Below are positions 34,026-39,365 of a DNA stretch of 64,000 bases, piece after piece. This DNA comes from Williamsia herbipolensis (GTDB lineage: Bacteria > Actinomycetota > Actinomycetes > Mycobacteriales > Mycobacteriaceae). The DNA lies in the NCBI RefSeq assembly GCF_000964005.1, contig NZ_JXYP01000036.1, forward strand, positions 1-64,000, read 5' to 3'. Position numbers and translations under genes: made by a program. Position 1 is the first letter of the stretch, and each line of letters starts with the position of its first letter. The notes beneath the pieces were generated by a model. It was not told the DNA's origin. It made no database searches and saw only the letters and a list, made by a program, of their open reading frames with translations.

Positions 34026-35528
34026 TCAGCGGTTCTTGCGCGTCGCCCGTCGCGTGATCCACTTCCACATCGACAGCTGCAGATTCGTCGAACGGCTGTC
34101 CATGGAGGTGAACGGCGCCGACATCAACTGCCCGAAGCTGATCGGCATCCGCGAGTGGGTGACCGCGCGGGCGTGCGAGAACGTCGCGAAGCCGAATTTC
34201 CCGTGATAGCTGCCCATTCCGCTGCCGCCGACACCGCCGAACGGGAGTTCGGCGCTGAGCAGGTTGAGCGCGAAGTCGTTGCCGTTCACCGATCCCGAGC
34301 GCGTGGACCGCTGCAGCGCCTCGTACCGCTCGTTGTCGGGGCCGAACCAGTAGATGGTCAGCGGGTGTCCGTGGCCGTTGATGTGGTCGACGGCCTCGGA
34401 GAGGTCACGGTAGGGATAGAGCGTCAGCACGGGGCCGAAGACCTCGTCCTCCTCGATCTTCATCCCCGCCTTCACACCGGTCAGCACTGTCGGCGGGATC
34501 TTGCGCGCGTCGGCGTCGGGCAGCTTCTCACCCGGCGGGACCACCTGCCGCTTGGTGGCGCCGAGGCTGACGGCGTCGTCGATGAGATCGACGATGCGCG
34601 TGTAGTTCTTCTCGTTGACCGTCGAGGTGAACTGCTCGTTGTGCAGGATCGAGGGGTAGTTCTGTCGCCACCGCGCGACGATGAGATCGGTGAAGCGCTG
34701 CAGGTGGGCCTCGGGCACGAAGGCGTAGTCGGGGCAGAGGCAGACCTGGCCGCTGTTGACCATACGGGCGTCGGCGAGACGCTTGGCCGCGTCGGCGATA
34801 TCGGCGGCGACGTCGATCACGACCGGGTTCTTGCCACCGAGCTCGAGGGTGACCGGCACCAGGTTGCGGCCGGCCTCGGTGGCGACCGAGGCGCCCACCC
34901 CGGGCGAACCGGTGAAGAACATGTGGTCGACCTTGAGCTTCGCGAAGTCCGAGCCCGAACCGTGTGCGCCGGTGAGGACCGCGAACTCCTCCAGCGAGAA
35001 GTAGTCAGGCGCGTGCTTCGCCAGCACCGCGGTGGTGCGGGCGGTCACCGACGAGGGCCGCATCATCACCCGGTTGCCGGCCGCGAACGCCGAGCCGGCC
35101 GGGACCACGGTCAGCTGCAACGGGAAGTTCCAGGGGCCCATGATGCCGACGACGCCGAGCGGGTCGTGCCGGATGCGCTGCGAGAACCCGGCGACGGCCA
35201 TCGACTTCGCGACCTTCTCGGTGCGCATCCACTGTGCGACGTGCTTGCGCTGATGGGCGAGGTCGATCATGCAGCCGGCCACGTCGGTGGCGATCGAGAG
35301 GTCGCGCGGTCGGGTGCCGAAGTCGGCGTCGAGCGCCTCGGCGATCTCCTCGGCGTTGTCGAGCAACAGGGCCGACAGTCGGTTGATCCGGTCGATACGG
35401 GTGGCCGCGTCGGGGATGCCGTCGCGCAGGAAGGCCGCGCGCTGCAGTTCGAGGAGCTCGTCGAGCGACCGCTCGTCGGCCGACCGGAAATGCGCGGCCG
35501 GGGCCTTCTGCGTGCTGGGTGTGCTCAT
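34026..35528 (-). CDS. Aldehyde dehydrogenase (coniferyl aldehyde dehydrogenase type)
   Basis: The 500-residue NAD(P)-dependent enzyme has PLGVVGIMGPWNFPLQL near residue 120, the general-base glutamate in VTLELGGKNPVV near 222, the catalytic cysteine in NSGQVCLCPDYAFVPE near 255 and EVFGPVLTLYPYRDL near 365. It oxidises an aldehyde to the acid. ATG 35528 follows AAGGAG. It lies upstream of kstR2 on the same strand, separated by the KstR2 box, so it need not belong to the regulon. The C-terminus with FTSMDSRSTNLQL and a basic WKWITRRATRKNR tail may associate with membrane. Confidence 0.89.
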   Translation of the reverse strand: MSTPSTQKAPAAHFRSADERSLDELLELQRAAFLRDGIPDAATRIDRINRLSALLLDNAEEIAEALDADFGTRPRDLSIATDVAGCMIDLAHQRKHVAQWMRTEKVAKSMAVAGFSQRIRHDPLGVVGIMGPWNFPLQLTVVPAGSAFAAGNRVMMRPSSVTARTTAVLAKHAPDYFSLEEFAVLTGAHGSGSDFAKLKVDHMFFTGSPGVGASVATEAGRNLVPVTLELGGKNPVVIDVAADIADAAKRLADARMVNSGQVCLCPDYAFVPEAHLQRFTDLIVARWRQNYPSILHNEQFTSTVNEKNYTRIVDLIDDAVSLGATKRQVVPPGEKLPDADARKIPPTVLTGVKAGMKIEEDEVFGPVLTLYPYRDLSEAVDHINGHGHPLTIYWFGPDNERYEALQRSTRSGSVNGNDFALNLLSAELPFGGVGGSGMGSYHGKFGFATFSHARAVTHSRMPISFGQLMSAPFTSMDSRSTNLQLSMWKWITRRATRKNR

Positions 35529-35647
35529 GCGGGTCGATCTCCTTCGATCCTTCAATGAAACAAACTCATCGATGTGTTGCTTTGCAGTATGCGCCACATC
35601 ACACCTCCCGCGCCACCGGGTGGGCTCGGACCGTAGAGTTCGGCCTC

Positions 35648-36034
35648 ATGAGAGACCTGCTCCCGGTGATCGGTCTGTGGTCGCTCGCGGTCGGCGCGCT
35701 GTCCGGTTTCGCGATGGTGCTCGTCGTCGACAAACCGCAGTACCTGCACAAGGTCGGCATCAAGCACCACCGTCGCGTGTTCCAGACGCACCTCGACTGG
35801 ATCCTCATGGGCCTGCTGCTGATCGCCGTCGGACTCGTCGCGACCGACACCCCCGCATGGGTCCTGGTGCTCGTCACCATCGGCGCGATCGTCAACCCGC
35901 TGCTGTTCGTGCCGCTCGCCTTCGAGGAGAAGATCCAGGAGACGCTCGCCTACCGCACCGCGTCAGGACTCTCGTTCGTGTCGCTGTCGGCGGGCCTCGT
36001 CGCCGTCGCCATCGCGCAGACCATCGCCTACTGA
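35648..36034 (+). CDS. Small four-helix membrane protein of unknown function
   Basis: The 128-residue protein has four hydrophobic segments: LLPVIGLWSLAVGALSGFAMVLVV, WILMGLLLIAVGLVA, WVLVLVTIGAIVNPLLFVPLAF and GLSFVSLSAGLVAVAIAQTIAY. The loop between the first two is basic (HKVGIKHHRRVFQTHLD), with histidines that could bind metal or quinone. It is divergent from the aldehyde dehydrogenase. No function can be assigned. The repeat array begins 10 nt after its stop. Confidence 0.75.
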   Translation: MRDLLPVIGLWSLAVGALSGFAMVLVVDKPQYLHKVGIKHHRRVFQTHLDWILMGLLLIAVGLVATDTPAWVLVLVTIGAIVNPLLFVPLAFEEKIQETLAYRTASGLSFVSLSAGLVAVAIAQTIAY

Positions 36035-36044
36035 TCGACGAATG

Positions 36045-36216
36045 GCTGACTGTGTGGAAACGGCCGTCGAGAGCGTGACCCGCGGTTGCTGACTGCGTGG
36101 AAACGGCCGTCGAGAGCGTGACCCGCGGTTGCTGACTGTGTGGAAACGGTCGTCGAGTGCGTGACCCGCGGTTTGCTGACTGTGTGGAAACGGTCGTCGA
36201 GTGTGCTGGCAGCGTG
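36045..36216. repeat. 43-bp tandem repeat, four copies
   Basis: A unit starting GCTGACTGTGTGGAAACGGY and ending CGTGACCCGCGGTT runs at 36045-36087, 36088-36130 and 36131-36174 (one extra T), with a fourth copy from 36175 that diverges after its first 30 bases. Units 1 and 2 differ by one base. The fourth copy also forms the left arm of the palindrome at 36175-36272. Confidence 0.92.
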
Positions 36217-36272
36217 ACGCGCGCCGACGACGAGACAACGCACACTCGGCGGCCGGCTTCCGCACCGTCAGC
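36175..36272. repeat. Large imperfect palindrome, left side of the DUF222/HNH gene
   Basis: The arm at 36175-36206 (GCTGACTGTGTGGAAA to CGAGTGTGC) is imperfectly complementary to 36240-36272 (GCACACTCGG to ACCGTCAGC) around a 33-nt loop. A matching palindrome with related arm sequence is on the other side of the gene at 37935-38032. Confidence 0.85.
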
Positions 36273-36287
36273 GGCAGTAGAACGCAA
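36239..36287. repeat. Left 49-bp inverted repeat bracketing the DUF222/HNH gene
   Basis: Read on the minus strand this segment begins TTGCGTTCTACTGCCGCTG. It matches 37920-37968 on the plus strand at 41 of 49 positions by hand alignment, with most differences in a 9-nt central block. The two copies face each other across the gene at 36401-37915. Confidence 0.85.
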
Positions 36288-36400
36288 CCACCCACCCGAA
36301 ATACACTCACGCCCAACACTATTCACTGAAATCAATCACCCACACCTCGAGCATGCGTGCTAGAATAGACGTACAGTCACACCTGGGGAGGGGGCAGTCC

Positions 36401-37915
36401 GTGAGCGATCTCGTGGCGAAATACGCTGCCCTACAGGCCCTTGTCGACGAGATCGCCAAGGAGACCTCGGACGCCTGCGACGACGAAACCGTCGCACAAC
36501 TGGCGATCACCCACCAGACCGTTGTCCGCCAATTCGAATCCATCGGTAACCAGCGGATCCTCGAGGTCTCCGACCGCGACGCCCACCGCACCGTCGGATG
36601 CGTGACCATCACCGAATTCCTCCAGACGAAACTCCGCATCACTTACCCCAAGAAGCGGTTACAGACGGTGCAGGCGTTGGAACCGCTACTTACGATGACC
36701 GGGGAGAAGCTGCCGCCGGTGTGCCCGAACACGGCTCGCGAGTTGGCCGCCGGAACGATCGGGCCCGATCACGTGCATGCGGTTCTCGACGTGATGAAGA
36801 AGATCCCGTCAGCGGTCGATGCCGAGCGTCGTGCGTTCGCCGAACAGACTCTCGCCGAGTTCGCGACGACGTTGACGCCGAAAGAGATCACCGCGGCCGG
36901 TGTGCGGATCCTCGCGCATCTCGATCCCGACGGGCAACTGACCGACGACCGCGACCGGGCACGCAACCGGAACCTGAACCTCGGTTGCCAGGACTCGCAG
37001 CTGATGTCGAAACTCACCGCCACGCTCGATCCGATCACGCGTGCTCTCTTCGATGTGGTGTTGGCGAAGTGGGCGGCGCCCGGTATGAACAACCCCGACG
37101 ACGACCGGTCCCCTATCGGTGACGGCAGTGACATCGATCCCGACCTGCTCCGCGAGGCCGCTGATCGGGATTGCCGTTCGCAGAGTCAGCGGAACCATGA
37201 CGCGTTGAAGGCCCTGCTGGATGCCGCGGTGAACGGTGGACTCCTCGGTGGGTCGCATCGGGGGTTGCCGCCGCAGATCATCGTCTCCATCACCGACGCA
37301 CAATTACGCGAACACGCCGGTGTGGCGCGCACCGCCACAGGCAGCGACCTCCCCATTAGCGATGTCGTGAAGCTGGCCGCCGACGCCCAACCGCATCTCG
37401 CGGTGTTCGACAACGTCACCAATGAGCCGTTGTACTTCGGCCGCGGCCGGCGCCTCGCGTCGCAGGCGCAACGGTTGATGGCCTTCGCCGAGTACAAGGG
37501 TTGTAGCAAAGACGACTGTCGTGTCCCGTTCGCCCACACCGAAATGCACCACGCGGAGACCGATTGGGCCGACGGCGGACTCACCGATGCCACCCACATG
37601 GCACCCGCCTGCGGACGCCACAACCGGGCCGTCGGACCTGAACCCCACCAGTGGACGACCGAAAAGATCACCGCCGGCCCCGACCGGGGACGGTATGGCT
37701 GGCGACGCAACACCGACCCACCGGAGATGCTCCGCGCCAACCGCCTATACCGTATCGACGAACTGCTACAACAGCATTCGACGAGTAATGACCCGTGGGC
37801 CGAACCTCCAGACGTCGACGAACCATCGCCACCGATCCCCGATGTCGAACACCCGCGAGTGTCACGCTTCGACATCGTCTGGCCCCGGGCTCCGCTCTAC
37901 CCCACTGCCTCGTAG
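36401..37915 (+). CDS. DUF222 domain HNH endonuclease family protein (13E12-type)
   Basis: From the GTG at 36401, preceded by GGGGAGGGGG, the protein is 504 residues. The DUF222 region (residues about 40-300: TITEFLQTKLRITYPKKRLQTVQALEPLL, ARELAAGTIGPDHVHAVLDVMKKIP) precedes a C-terminal HNH domain at residues about 365-410 with CSKDDC, HTEMHHAETDWADGG and CGRHNRAVG, so the His, Asn and His metal/catalytic positions are intact. The proline-rich tail ends near the right inverted repeat. Such genes are multicopy in Mycobacteriales and their role is unsolved. It separates kstR2-side genes from fadA6, unlike M. tuberculosis, and is framed by palindromes, which suggests mobility. Confidence 0.88.
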   Translation: MSDLVAKYAALQALVDEIAKETSDACDDETVAQLAITHQTVVRQFESIGNQRILEVSDRDAHRTVGCVTITEFLQTKLRITYPKKRLQTVQALEPLLTMTGEKLPPVCPNTARELAAGTIGPDHVHAVLDVMKKIPSAVDAERRAFAEQTLAEFATTLTPKEITAAGVRILAHLDPDGQLTDDRDRARNRNLNLGCQDSQLMSKLTATLDPITRALFDVVLAKWAAPGMNNPDDDRSPIGDGSDIDPDLLREAADRDCRSQSQRNHDALKALLDAAVNGGLLGGSHRGLPPQIIVSITDAQLREHAGVARTATGSDLPISDVVKLAADAQPHLAVFDNVTNEPLYFGRGRRLASQAQRLMAFAEYKGCSKDDCRVPFAHTEMHHAETDWADGGLTDATHMAPACGRHNRAVGPEPHQWTTEKITAGPDRGRYGWRRNTDPPEMLRANRLYRIDELLQQHSTSNDPWAEPPDVDEPSPPIPDVEHPRVSRFDIVWPRAPLYPTAS

Positions 37916-37919
37916 CTCG

Positions 37920-37968
37920 TTGCGTTCTACCGCCGCTGACTGTGCGGAAAGTCGTCGTCGAGTGTGCG
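37920..37968. repeat. Right 49-bp inverted repeat bracketing the DUF222/HNH gene
   Basis: This segment begins TTGCGTTCTACCGCCGCTG, 5 nt after the stop codon of the gene, and ends GAGTGTGCG. It is the inverted partner of 36239-36287 (41 of 49 identical). Confidence 0.85.
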
Positions 37969-38032
37969 CTGTCCGGCTGTCGACTCACGCAATGCGGTGA
38001 GCACACTCGACTGAACTTTCCACACACTCAGC
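37935..38032. repeat. Large imperfect palindrome, right side of the DUF222/HNH gene
   Basis: The arm at 37935-37967 (GCTGACTGTGCGGAAAG to CGAGTGTGC) pairs imperfectly with 38001-38032 (GCACACTCGA to CACACTCAGC) across a 33-nt loop. Arm and loop lengths equal those of the left palindrome, while the loop sequences differ. Confidence 0.85.
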
Positions 38033-38151
38033 CCCACCACCCGACTCCAAGTGCGACACAGTCCGCCGGGTCGCTCGAGCCATGCCCGGGGCGGTGTTCC
38101 GACTGCTACCCCTGTGGCGATACATCCTCGTGTGGCACAAACCGAGATAGT

Positions 38152-38210
38152 CAGTTGCCCAACTGCGGTCGTTACCTGCCCAACTGCGGGCGTTACGTGC
38201 CCAACTGGCG
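38152..38210. repeat. Three imperfect 20-21-bp tandem repeats next to the fadA6 stop
   Basis: The core TGCCCAACTG occurs three times with spacing of 20-21 nt (38157, 38177 and 38198), with CGTTACSTGCCCAACTG complete in the last two. The array ends directly at the fadA6 stop codon. Apart from these repeats and the palindrome, the rest of the 37916-38210 gap shows nothing recognisable. Confidence 0.8.
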
Positions 38211-39365
38211 TCAGAGTCTCTCGATGATGGTGACGTTCGCGGTCCCGCCGCCCTCACACATCGTCTGGAGGCCGTAGCGGCCGCCGGTGCGCTCGAGTTC
38301 GTTCAGCAGGGTCGAGAAGAGTTTCGCGCCGGTGGCACCGAGGGGGTGGCCCAGGGCGATGCCGCCGCCGTTCGGGTTGACCCGGGCGGGATCGGCGCCG
38401 GTCTCCTTCAGCCAGGCCAGCACGACCGGAGCGAACGCCTCGTTGATCTCGACGACATCGATGTCGTCGATCGACAATCCGGTCTTCTCCAGCGCCCACT
38501 TCGTCGCGGGGATCGGAGCCGAGAGCATCATCACCGGGTCGTCACCGCGCACCGACAGGTGGTGGATCCGGGCGCGCGGGGTGAGGCCGTGCTGCTTCAG
38601 AGCCGCCTCAGACACGACCAGCGTGGCCGCGGCGCCGTCGCAGATCTGTGACGCGACAGCCGCGGTCAGCGACGATCCCTCGGCCAAGACCTTGAGCCCG
38701 GCCATCGTCGAGAGCGAGGTCTCGCGGGGACACTCGTCGACGACGCACTCCCCCATCGCCACGGTCTCCTTCTCGAAACGACCCTCGGCGATGGCGGCCA
38801 GCGCACGCTGATGCGACTGCAGCGCCCACCCCTCCATGTCCCCGCGGCTGATCTCCCACCGCTTGGCCATCATGTCCGCACCGGTGAACTGTGAGATGTC
38901 GGCGTCGCCGAACCGTTCGGCCCAGCCGTTCGATCCGCTGAACGGGGTGTCGAACCCGTACTCGCGCCCGGCGAGCATCGCCGACGAGATCGGGATGGCG
39001 CTCATGTTCTGGATGCCGCCGGCGAGCACCACGTCCTGGGTTCCGCTCATCACCGCCTGGGCGGCGAAATGGATTGCCTGCTGTGATGATCCGCACTGAC
39101 GGTCGACGGTGGTGCCGGGAACGCCCAACGGCTGACCGGCCGCGAGCCACGCCGAACGGGCGATGTTGCCGGCCTGCGGTCCGATGGTGTCGACGCACCC
39201 GAAGATGACGTCGTCGACGACATTCGGATCGATGCCGGTGCGCTCGAGGACGGCGTTGATGACGTGGGCACCCATGTCGGCGGGGTGCGTCTTCGCCAGC
39301 GACCCGTTGCGTTTGCCGACCGGGGTCCGGATGGAGTCGACGATGTAGGCCTGCGGTTGTGACAT
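38211..39365 (-). CDS. fadA6: Thiolase FadA6 of steroid ring degradation
   Basis: The 384-residue thiolase has the nucleophile in VDRQCGSSQQAIHFAAQ near residue 89, NEAFAPVVLAWLKETG near 318, NPNGGGIALGHPLGATGAKL near 340 and the C-terminal catalytic region MCEGGGTANV near 372. FadA6 performs the thiolysis that follows IpdAB ring opening. It is last in a minus-strand operon fadE30-ipdF-fadA6 controlled from the KstR2 box at 41463. In M. tuberculosis the neighbour is kstR2; here a DUF222 element and other genes intervene. Confidence 0.91.
   Translation of the reverse strand: MSQPQAYIVDSIRTPVGKRNGSLAKTHPADMGAHVINAVLERTGIDPNVVDDVIFGCVDTIGPQAGNIARSAWLAAGQPLGVPGTTVDRQCGSSQQAIHFAAQAVMSGTQDVVLAGGIQNMSAIPISSAMLAGREYGFDTPFSGSNGWAERFGDADISQFTGADMMAKRWEISRGDMEGWALQSHQRALAAIAEGRFEKETVAMGECVVDECPRETSLSTMAGLKVLAEGSSLTAAVASQICDGAAATLVVSEAALKQHGLTPRARIHHLSVRGDDPVMMLSAPIPATKWALEKTGLSIDDIDVVEINEAFAPVVLAWLKETGADPARVNPNGGGIALGHPLGATGAKLFSTLLNELERTGGRYGLQTMCEGGGTANVTIIERL

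Follow-up and report, generated by a model that had tools for sequence, protein, structure and literature searches.

A putatively mobile DUF222/HNH gene unit with palindromic ends in Williamsia herbipolensis

Elements of the IS200/IS605 family carry a single gene with palindromes near both ends and leave no target duplication. In the REPIN-RAYT system, as described in PMC3116915, repetitive extragenic palindromes (REPs) of 20–40 bp occur as inverted doublets, as singlets and in ordered tandem clusters including the flanks, and the adjacent single-copy gene for a REP-associated tyrosine transposase (RAYT) is the proposed mobiliser. Many actinobacteria carry several copies of DUF222/HNH (13E12-type) genes, to which no role has been assigned. 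The REP13E12/13E12 genes of Mycobacterium tuberculosis are likewise multicopy and undergo gene conversion (PMC13061034, PMC10589994), REP13E12 being a gene-conversion hotspot (PMC13061034), and the available text of both sources makes no mention of stem-loops. Here we describe a DUF222/HNH gene that stands between two large inverted palindromes in a 64,000-nucleotide (nt) stretch of the Williamsia herbipolensis genome (assembly GCF_000964005.1, contig NZ_JXYP01000036.1, positions 1 to 64,000; "the window"). In the titles and abstract openings of the literature on DUF222, REP13E12 and REPIN/RAYT, no hairpin-ended DUF222-HNH unit is described.

The unit may be read as optional half-arms, a stem-loop, a predicted promoter and the DUF222/HNH gene, followed in some copies by a second stem-loop with optional half-arms. 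In the window, its features are as follows.
36045–36087, 36088–36130 and 36131–36173, plus strand: outer half-arm in three tandem copies of 43 nt each, outside the left stem-loop
36175–36272, plus strand: left stem-loop (SL1), 98 nt, with a variable loop of about 33 nt; covariance model R1 gives 99.9 bits on the plus and 53.4 on the minus strand
36239–36287, plus strand: inner left half of a 49-bp inverted repeat, 41/49 identical with 37920–37968
36361–36366, plus strand: TAGAAT, a possible -10 box of the DUF222/HNH gene, read by eye
36401–37915, plus strand: DUF222/HNH gene, 504 amino acids from the GTG at 36401 (alternative start ATG at 36353); Pfam DUF222 E 4.9e-56
36515–37480, plus strand: DUF222 domain
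37502–37624, plus strand: HNH-type signature C-x4-C ... HH ... DW..GG ... C-x2-HN, a motif read by eye
37920–37968, minus strand: right half of the 49-bp inverted repeat, 41/49 identity with 36239–36287
37935–38032, minus strand: right stem-loop (SL2), inverted relative to SL1; R1 gives 99.0 bits on the minus and 56.2 on the plus strand
38033–38068, no strand assigned: probably a degenerate outer half-arm belonging to the right end, a weak likeness by eye to the right ends at C5, C23 and C49

The two palindromes are the ends of a longer inverted repeat (36175–36295 versus 37912–38032; 121 nt, 74% complementary), of which the 49-bp repeat reported in the earlier note is a part. When the inward strands were folded as RNA, the left and right palindromes gave -63 and -57 kcal/mol, with z-scores of -6.3 and -6.7 against 200 shuffles. 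These values, together with the R1 scores listed above, bear out the matched flanking palindromes of that note, although both sequences were among those from which R1 was built. An ungapped base-pair count over 33-nt arms (17/33 and 16/33) was unremarkable within the window because the arms contain a bulge. The arm core occurred 7 times within the window with up to 3 mismatches, versus 0.31 expected. The tandem half-arms at 36045–36173 had been absent from the earlier description; most other left ends have similar half-arm copies of differing period on their outer side, as do the right ends at C5, C23 and C49.

In the W. herbipolensis genome (G000), the arm core occurred 39 times with at most one mismatch, versus once for the reversed control. 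Strong stem-loops, defined as R1 matches of at least 70 bits, were found in at least 19 places; 14 of them are no more than 2 kb from a DUF222 gene, and 9 of the 28 DUF222 genes are so accompanied. Four loci (the window, C5, C23 and C49) have the order stem-loop, gene, stem-loop, and five others (C1, C13, C15, C26 and C30) have the left stem-loop only, with homology stopping at the gene's stop codon. The gene at C25 comes from the same group and has neither stem-loop. Inverted stem-loop pairs with no gene are present at C5:116804–117032 and C6:32174–32395. In addition, a stem-loop followed by a 61-nt gene piece (C50:28021) and a half stem-loop preceding a C-terminal fragment of the gene (C22:49324) look like decayed units. 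The sequence GTCAGC after the stop codon of copies that lack the right hairpin was considered as a scar and dropped, because the stop codon of a convergent neighbour could account for it.

The sites were compared among eight genomes of the genus, G000 and seven relatives (G001–G007). At the window site, the unit is missing in six of the seven relatives: the flanks are 63–228 nt apart in G001, G002, G003, G004 and G007 and are separated by a methyltransferase gene in G005, while in G006 the left flank alone aligned. No copy of the window palindrome was found at the orthologous site in the relatives; other palindromic arrays occupy it in G001, G004 and G007, and other short tandem repeats in G002 and G003. 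Positions 38083–38144 of the window are 77% identical to the 3' end of the methyltransferase gene that is intact there in G005, and what remained of that gene was probably removed when the unit arrived or by a later event. For C23, the flanking genes are 0–42 nt apart in six relatives, whereas 1.95 kb is inserted in G000; the flanks in G006 are far apart.

The ends of the units were also compared with each other. Left ends are 88–94% alike across loci (6 of 10 compared) and right ends 81–94% (4 of 4), whereas the left and right ends within one element are 70–72% alike; therefore, the ends travel with the gene. The left end at C5 is only 73–79% identical to the hairpins resident at the same site in G002. 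In G002 itself, two copies are 96.5% identical across 1,638 nt from the half-arm and stem-loop, the first ~240 nt being identical and the C-terminal tails differing. At one of these two sites, a half-arm and another palindrome are all that G003 has, and the unit is missing from four further relatives; G005 appears to carry the gene (at a contig end), and the G000 copy is oppositely oriented. These comparisons indicate that the unit is mobile, as the earlier note had proposed, and has spread to several intergenic sites of the W. herbipolensis genome.

Such a unit might instead be moved in trans by a transposase or recombinase, with the DUF222 gene as cargo, and inverted-repeat ends together with gene-less derivatives fit a transposon. 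Conversely, no target duplication was seen at the two closely read sites, the window and C23, where the relatives are only about 75–90% identical, and the window insertion was accompanied by the loss of flanking DNA. Y1 (IS200/RAYT) transposases, the sole transposase type searched for, were missing from all eight genomes, while the same search matched 5 of 14 control genomes. We consider carriage as cargo quite improbable.

The distribution in the relatives is uneven. With 150 first-look candidates scored per genome, so that the counts are lower bounds, strong stem-loops were found in at least 30 places in G002, 24 in G003, 14 in G005, 3 in G004 and 2 in G007, and in none in G001 and G006. Among 301 genomes of the taxonomic family, with 13 candidates scored per genome, 21 had a match at E ≤0.01, and all matches of at least 70 bits fell within this genus. 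The examined loci contained 24 gene-less inverted pairs of 209–234 nt (G000, 2; G002, 9; G003, 8; G004, 1; G005, 4), some of them in tandem, such as a G003 array of three units with a 266-nt period. One gene-less site, L061, is common to five species, and gene-less copies can therefore be old. Proximity to DUF222 genes was assessed in G000, G002 and G003. In contrast to G000, the great majority of strong copies in G002 (27 of 30) and G003 (22 of 24) are not near a DUF222 gene. From the earlier interpretation, mobility and palindromic ends stood, whereas a constant association of the palindromes with DUF222 genes did not. The stem-loop was also dropped as a general feature of DUF222 genes, since none of 56 loci from other species gave a significant match.

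The earlier note had further suggested that orthologous sites without the gene might keep a palindrome, which is seen at several loci and not at the window site. The C5 site corresponds to gene-less pairs in G002 and G003 (L181 and L189), and the C13 site to gene-less stem-loops in G002 (L178) and to a half-arm in G003. Where G002 and G003 have the gene at L173/L194, G005 has one stem-loop (L209), and the C1 site holds one diverged stem-loop in G007 (L251). Either the gene prefers to land at resident palindromes, or it was lost at these sites with the palindromes left behind. The distance from stem-loop to gene at L173 of G002 is longer by ~650 nt (~1880–2525) than at L194 of G003.

Gene-less copies at the same sites in several species would also be expected if the palindromes were independent intergenic repeats, such as two-way terminators or insulators, and the DUF222 genes passengers spread by homologous recombination and gene conversion between repeats. 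Consistent with this, a crude gene caller could call both neighbours of 45 stem-loop clusters, 22 of which lie between convergent genes, other species have intergenic palindromic arrays with no adjacent DUF222 gene by motif scan, and the REP13E12 hotspot described in PMC13061034 provides a precedent for gene conversion. However, the units at the window and C23 entered sites that have no such palindrome in the relatives, the two ends retain their left or right identity along with the gene, and most of the hairpins in G000 are gene-linked. We regard independent repeats as unlikely, if a serious contender.

The stem was analysed in an alignment (A1) of 66 of the 89 stem-loops from the examined loci, the other 23, mostly near-duplicates, being left out by hand. 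Standard pairs made up 98.3% of the paired positions, compared with 94.5% in shuffles, none of 500 of which reached the observed value. The covariation score was 0.152 versus 0.083 in shuffles, and 0.012–0.046 when the partners were slid by 1–3 columns. Two weaker measures gave smaller differences: 6 pairs changed on both sides versus 4.4 (matched by 50 of 500 shuffles), and 20 further pair types versus 17.2 (matched by 14 of 500). Clear pair swaps were seen for columns 17–89 (C-G 37, G-C 19) and 23–82 (A-U 33, G-C 24).

Along the strand that runs inward from the outer arm, the non-Watson-Crick pairs comprised 101 G-T and 7 A-C; the counts were 43:7 without the column pair 11–95 and 22:6 without 3–103 as well. 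As G-T is far commoner than A-C, a single strand, of DNA or RNA, seems to be read, which suggests that the folded single strand of the stem is under selection. In the gene-less pairs, each of the two stem-loops shows the excess on the strand that is inward for that stem-loop (11:2 and 10:1). An excess on the inward-read strand at both ends is also what RNA entering from the flanking genes would produce, and to that extent agrees with independent repeats. The stem-loop was dropped as a known RNA, as Rfam has no matching family: the region 35500–38600 of the window gave no matches up to E 5, and five related loci gave at most sub-threshold matches near the palindromes (best E 0.15).

The protein encoded in the window matches Pfam DUF222 (PF02720) with 190.7 bits against a curated cut-off of 24.4. 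It has no Pfam HNH match up to E 1, and Pfam HNH weakly matches 11 of 24 aligned relatives (best E 0.004). The signature C-x4-C, HH, GG.TD, C-x2-HN is present in 8 of the 9 stem-loop-linked genes of W. herbipolensis; the C5 gene is frameshifted in the HNH part, and the C13 gene has R in the position of the final H. Among these genes, conservation does not extend to the central Asn of the textbook HNH motif. Modelled residues 41–176, the N-terminal part of DUF222, align by VIA-align to the DNA-binding domains of the palindrome-binding ParB/Noc proteins, whereas Foldseek gave no significant match, with ParB/Noc absent from the 50 matches listed. The predicted DUF222 N-terminus thus resembles the ParB/Noc fold in one of the two structural comparisons. 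A sequence search for relatives of solved structure yielded nothing significant (best E 0.25).

The nine stem-loop-linked gene copies are under purifying selection, with a median dN/dS (the ratio of non-synonymous to synonymous substitution rates) of 0.149 across 36 pairs. A dN/dS of about 0.15 would also suit a defence or repair nuclease selected for its own function, with the hairpins regulating or insulating its gene, and the left hairpin indeed lies immediately upstream of the predicted promoter region. This role appears very improbable, as PADLOC found no defence-system match, the C5 gene is frameshifted in its HNH part, and the same hairpins are mostly gene-free in G002 and G003.

Related DUF222 genes that have no stem-loop link and share a position in G001 (L219–L224) and G004 (L214–L218) are 73–75% identical, with flanks largely at 76–85%, whereas paralogues within G001 or G004 are about 84–88% identical (medians 85.0 and 86.7). 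The unlinked genes thus show the pattern of concerted evolution, because the paralogues within a genome are more alike than same-position genes between species, a pattern also reported for REP13E12 of M. tuberculosis (PMC13061034). In the protein tree, the linked genes form two clades, with support of 1.0 (G002/G003) and 0.944 (G000, including the unlinked C25), separated by unlinked lineages; therefore, the stem-loop link was either gained twice or lost repeatedly.

Taken together, we favour, with a probability of roughly 0.5, a mobile element with palindromic ends whose DUF222-HNH protein acts as the mobiliser by binding and cutting the palindromes. The DUF222 part would bind the palindrome arms, and the HNH part would nick or cut there. 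Repair against another copy would then insert or convert the unit, a copying, homing-like process rather than cut-and-paste, so that the palindrome would serve both as the end of the element and as its preferred landing site. The gene-less pairs would represent family members resembling REPINs or miniature inverted-repeat transposable elements (MITEs), some of them decayed from gene-bearing copies. More tentatively, and in our view rather doubtfully, DUF222-HNH proteins may form a new class of mobilising nuclease, in which a ParB-like domain reads the arms and HNH cuts there, so that the nuclease's own gene and gene-less hairpin pairs spread as copies into palindromes.

By analogy, this layout would work like REPIN-RAYT or a MITE with its transposon, with the DUF222-HNH protein, which we infer moves the unit, in the transposase's place. 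It shares with REPIN-RAYT the inverted palindrome doublets, singlets, ordered tandem clusters and adjacent gene, but the stem-loops here are 98 nt long, and the linked gene is multicopy and encodes DUF222-HNH, not a Y1 tyrosine transposase. The end-near palindromes, single gene and lack of an observed target duplication recall IS200/IS605, whereas the eight genomes lack a Y1 gene and the hairpins are inverted copies favouring opposite strands. As with MITEs and their parent transposons, gene-less SL1-linker-SL2 stands alongside SL1-gene-SL2 with the same ends; unlike in MITEs, the terminal repeats are themselves palindromes, no target duplication was observed, and by eye the linker of the gene-less pairs shows no clear remnant of a gene. 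The unit resembles HNH homing endonuclease genes in having a nuclease-like gene that is missing at orthologous sites, with one-sided flank loss and concerted copies, but here cleavage is putative, and the unit lies outside introns and inteins at intergenic landing sites with or without palindromes. The description of REP13E12 differs in making no mention of such stem-loops.

On the more tentative reading of a new nuclease class, a REPIN-like system would have arisen without a Y1 transposase, which would explain the multicopy, gene-converting DUF222/13E12 genes across Mycobacteriales; binding and nicking of the hairpin by the DUF222-HNH protein would mean a repeated origin of REPIN-like elements, with unrelated enzymes. 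As these DUF222/HNH genes have defined ends, derivatives without the gene, empty sites and a hairpin that covaries, their role becomes a direct biochemical question. Carriage by phages or plasmids was considered and dropped, with no phage and four weak plasmid matches; six viral-contig stretches with the arm core gave just two weak model matches (19.6 and 17.7 bits).

Other DUF222 genes have boundaries of their own. A second subfamily in G000 (C49:89221, C9:22550, C4:121547 and C3:95547) consists of copies that are 88–90% identical and without these palindromes, with homology that runs from immediately ahead of the start codon to roughly the stop codon. The DUF222 paralogues of Gordonia spumicola, G. 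malaquae and W. limnetica lose their homology within ~30–280 nt of the open reading frame. The paralogues of G. spumicola (L106, L108–L115) and G. malaquae (L107, L116–L118) are 86–93% alike, and their homology ends ~30 nt beyond a short hairpin that overlaps the stop codon.

Palindromic arrays of another kind, built from 15–16-nt half-arms (GTCGAGTGGGCGG..., GCCGAGCGTGCCGAAA...), lie between genes in this and other genera. They occupy the window site in G001, G004 and G007 (L166, L169 and L172) and are found at L236–L250 and other loci; one such half-arm motif is present exactly in 8 of 61 family genomes. Positions 38150–38214 of the window contain a separate interspersed repeat of about 55–65 nt, a tandem of the CCCAACTG type, with 87–96% matches at more than 10 other places in the W. 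herbipolensis genome and several in G002 and G005.
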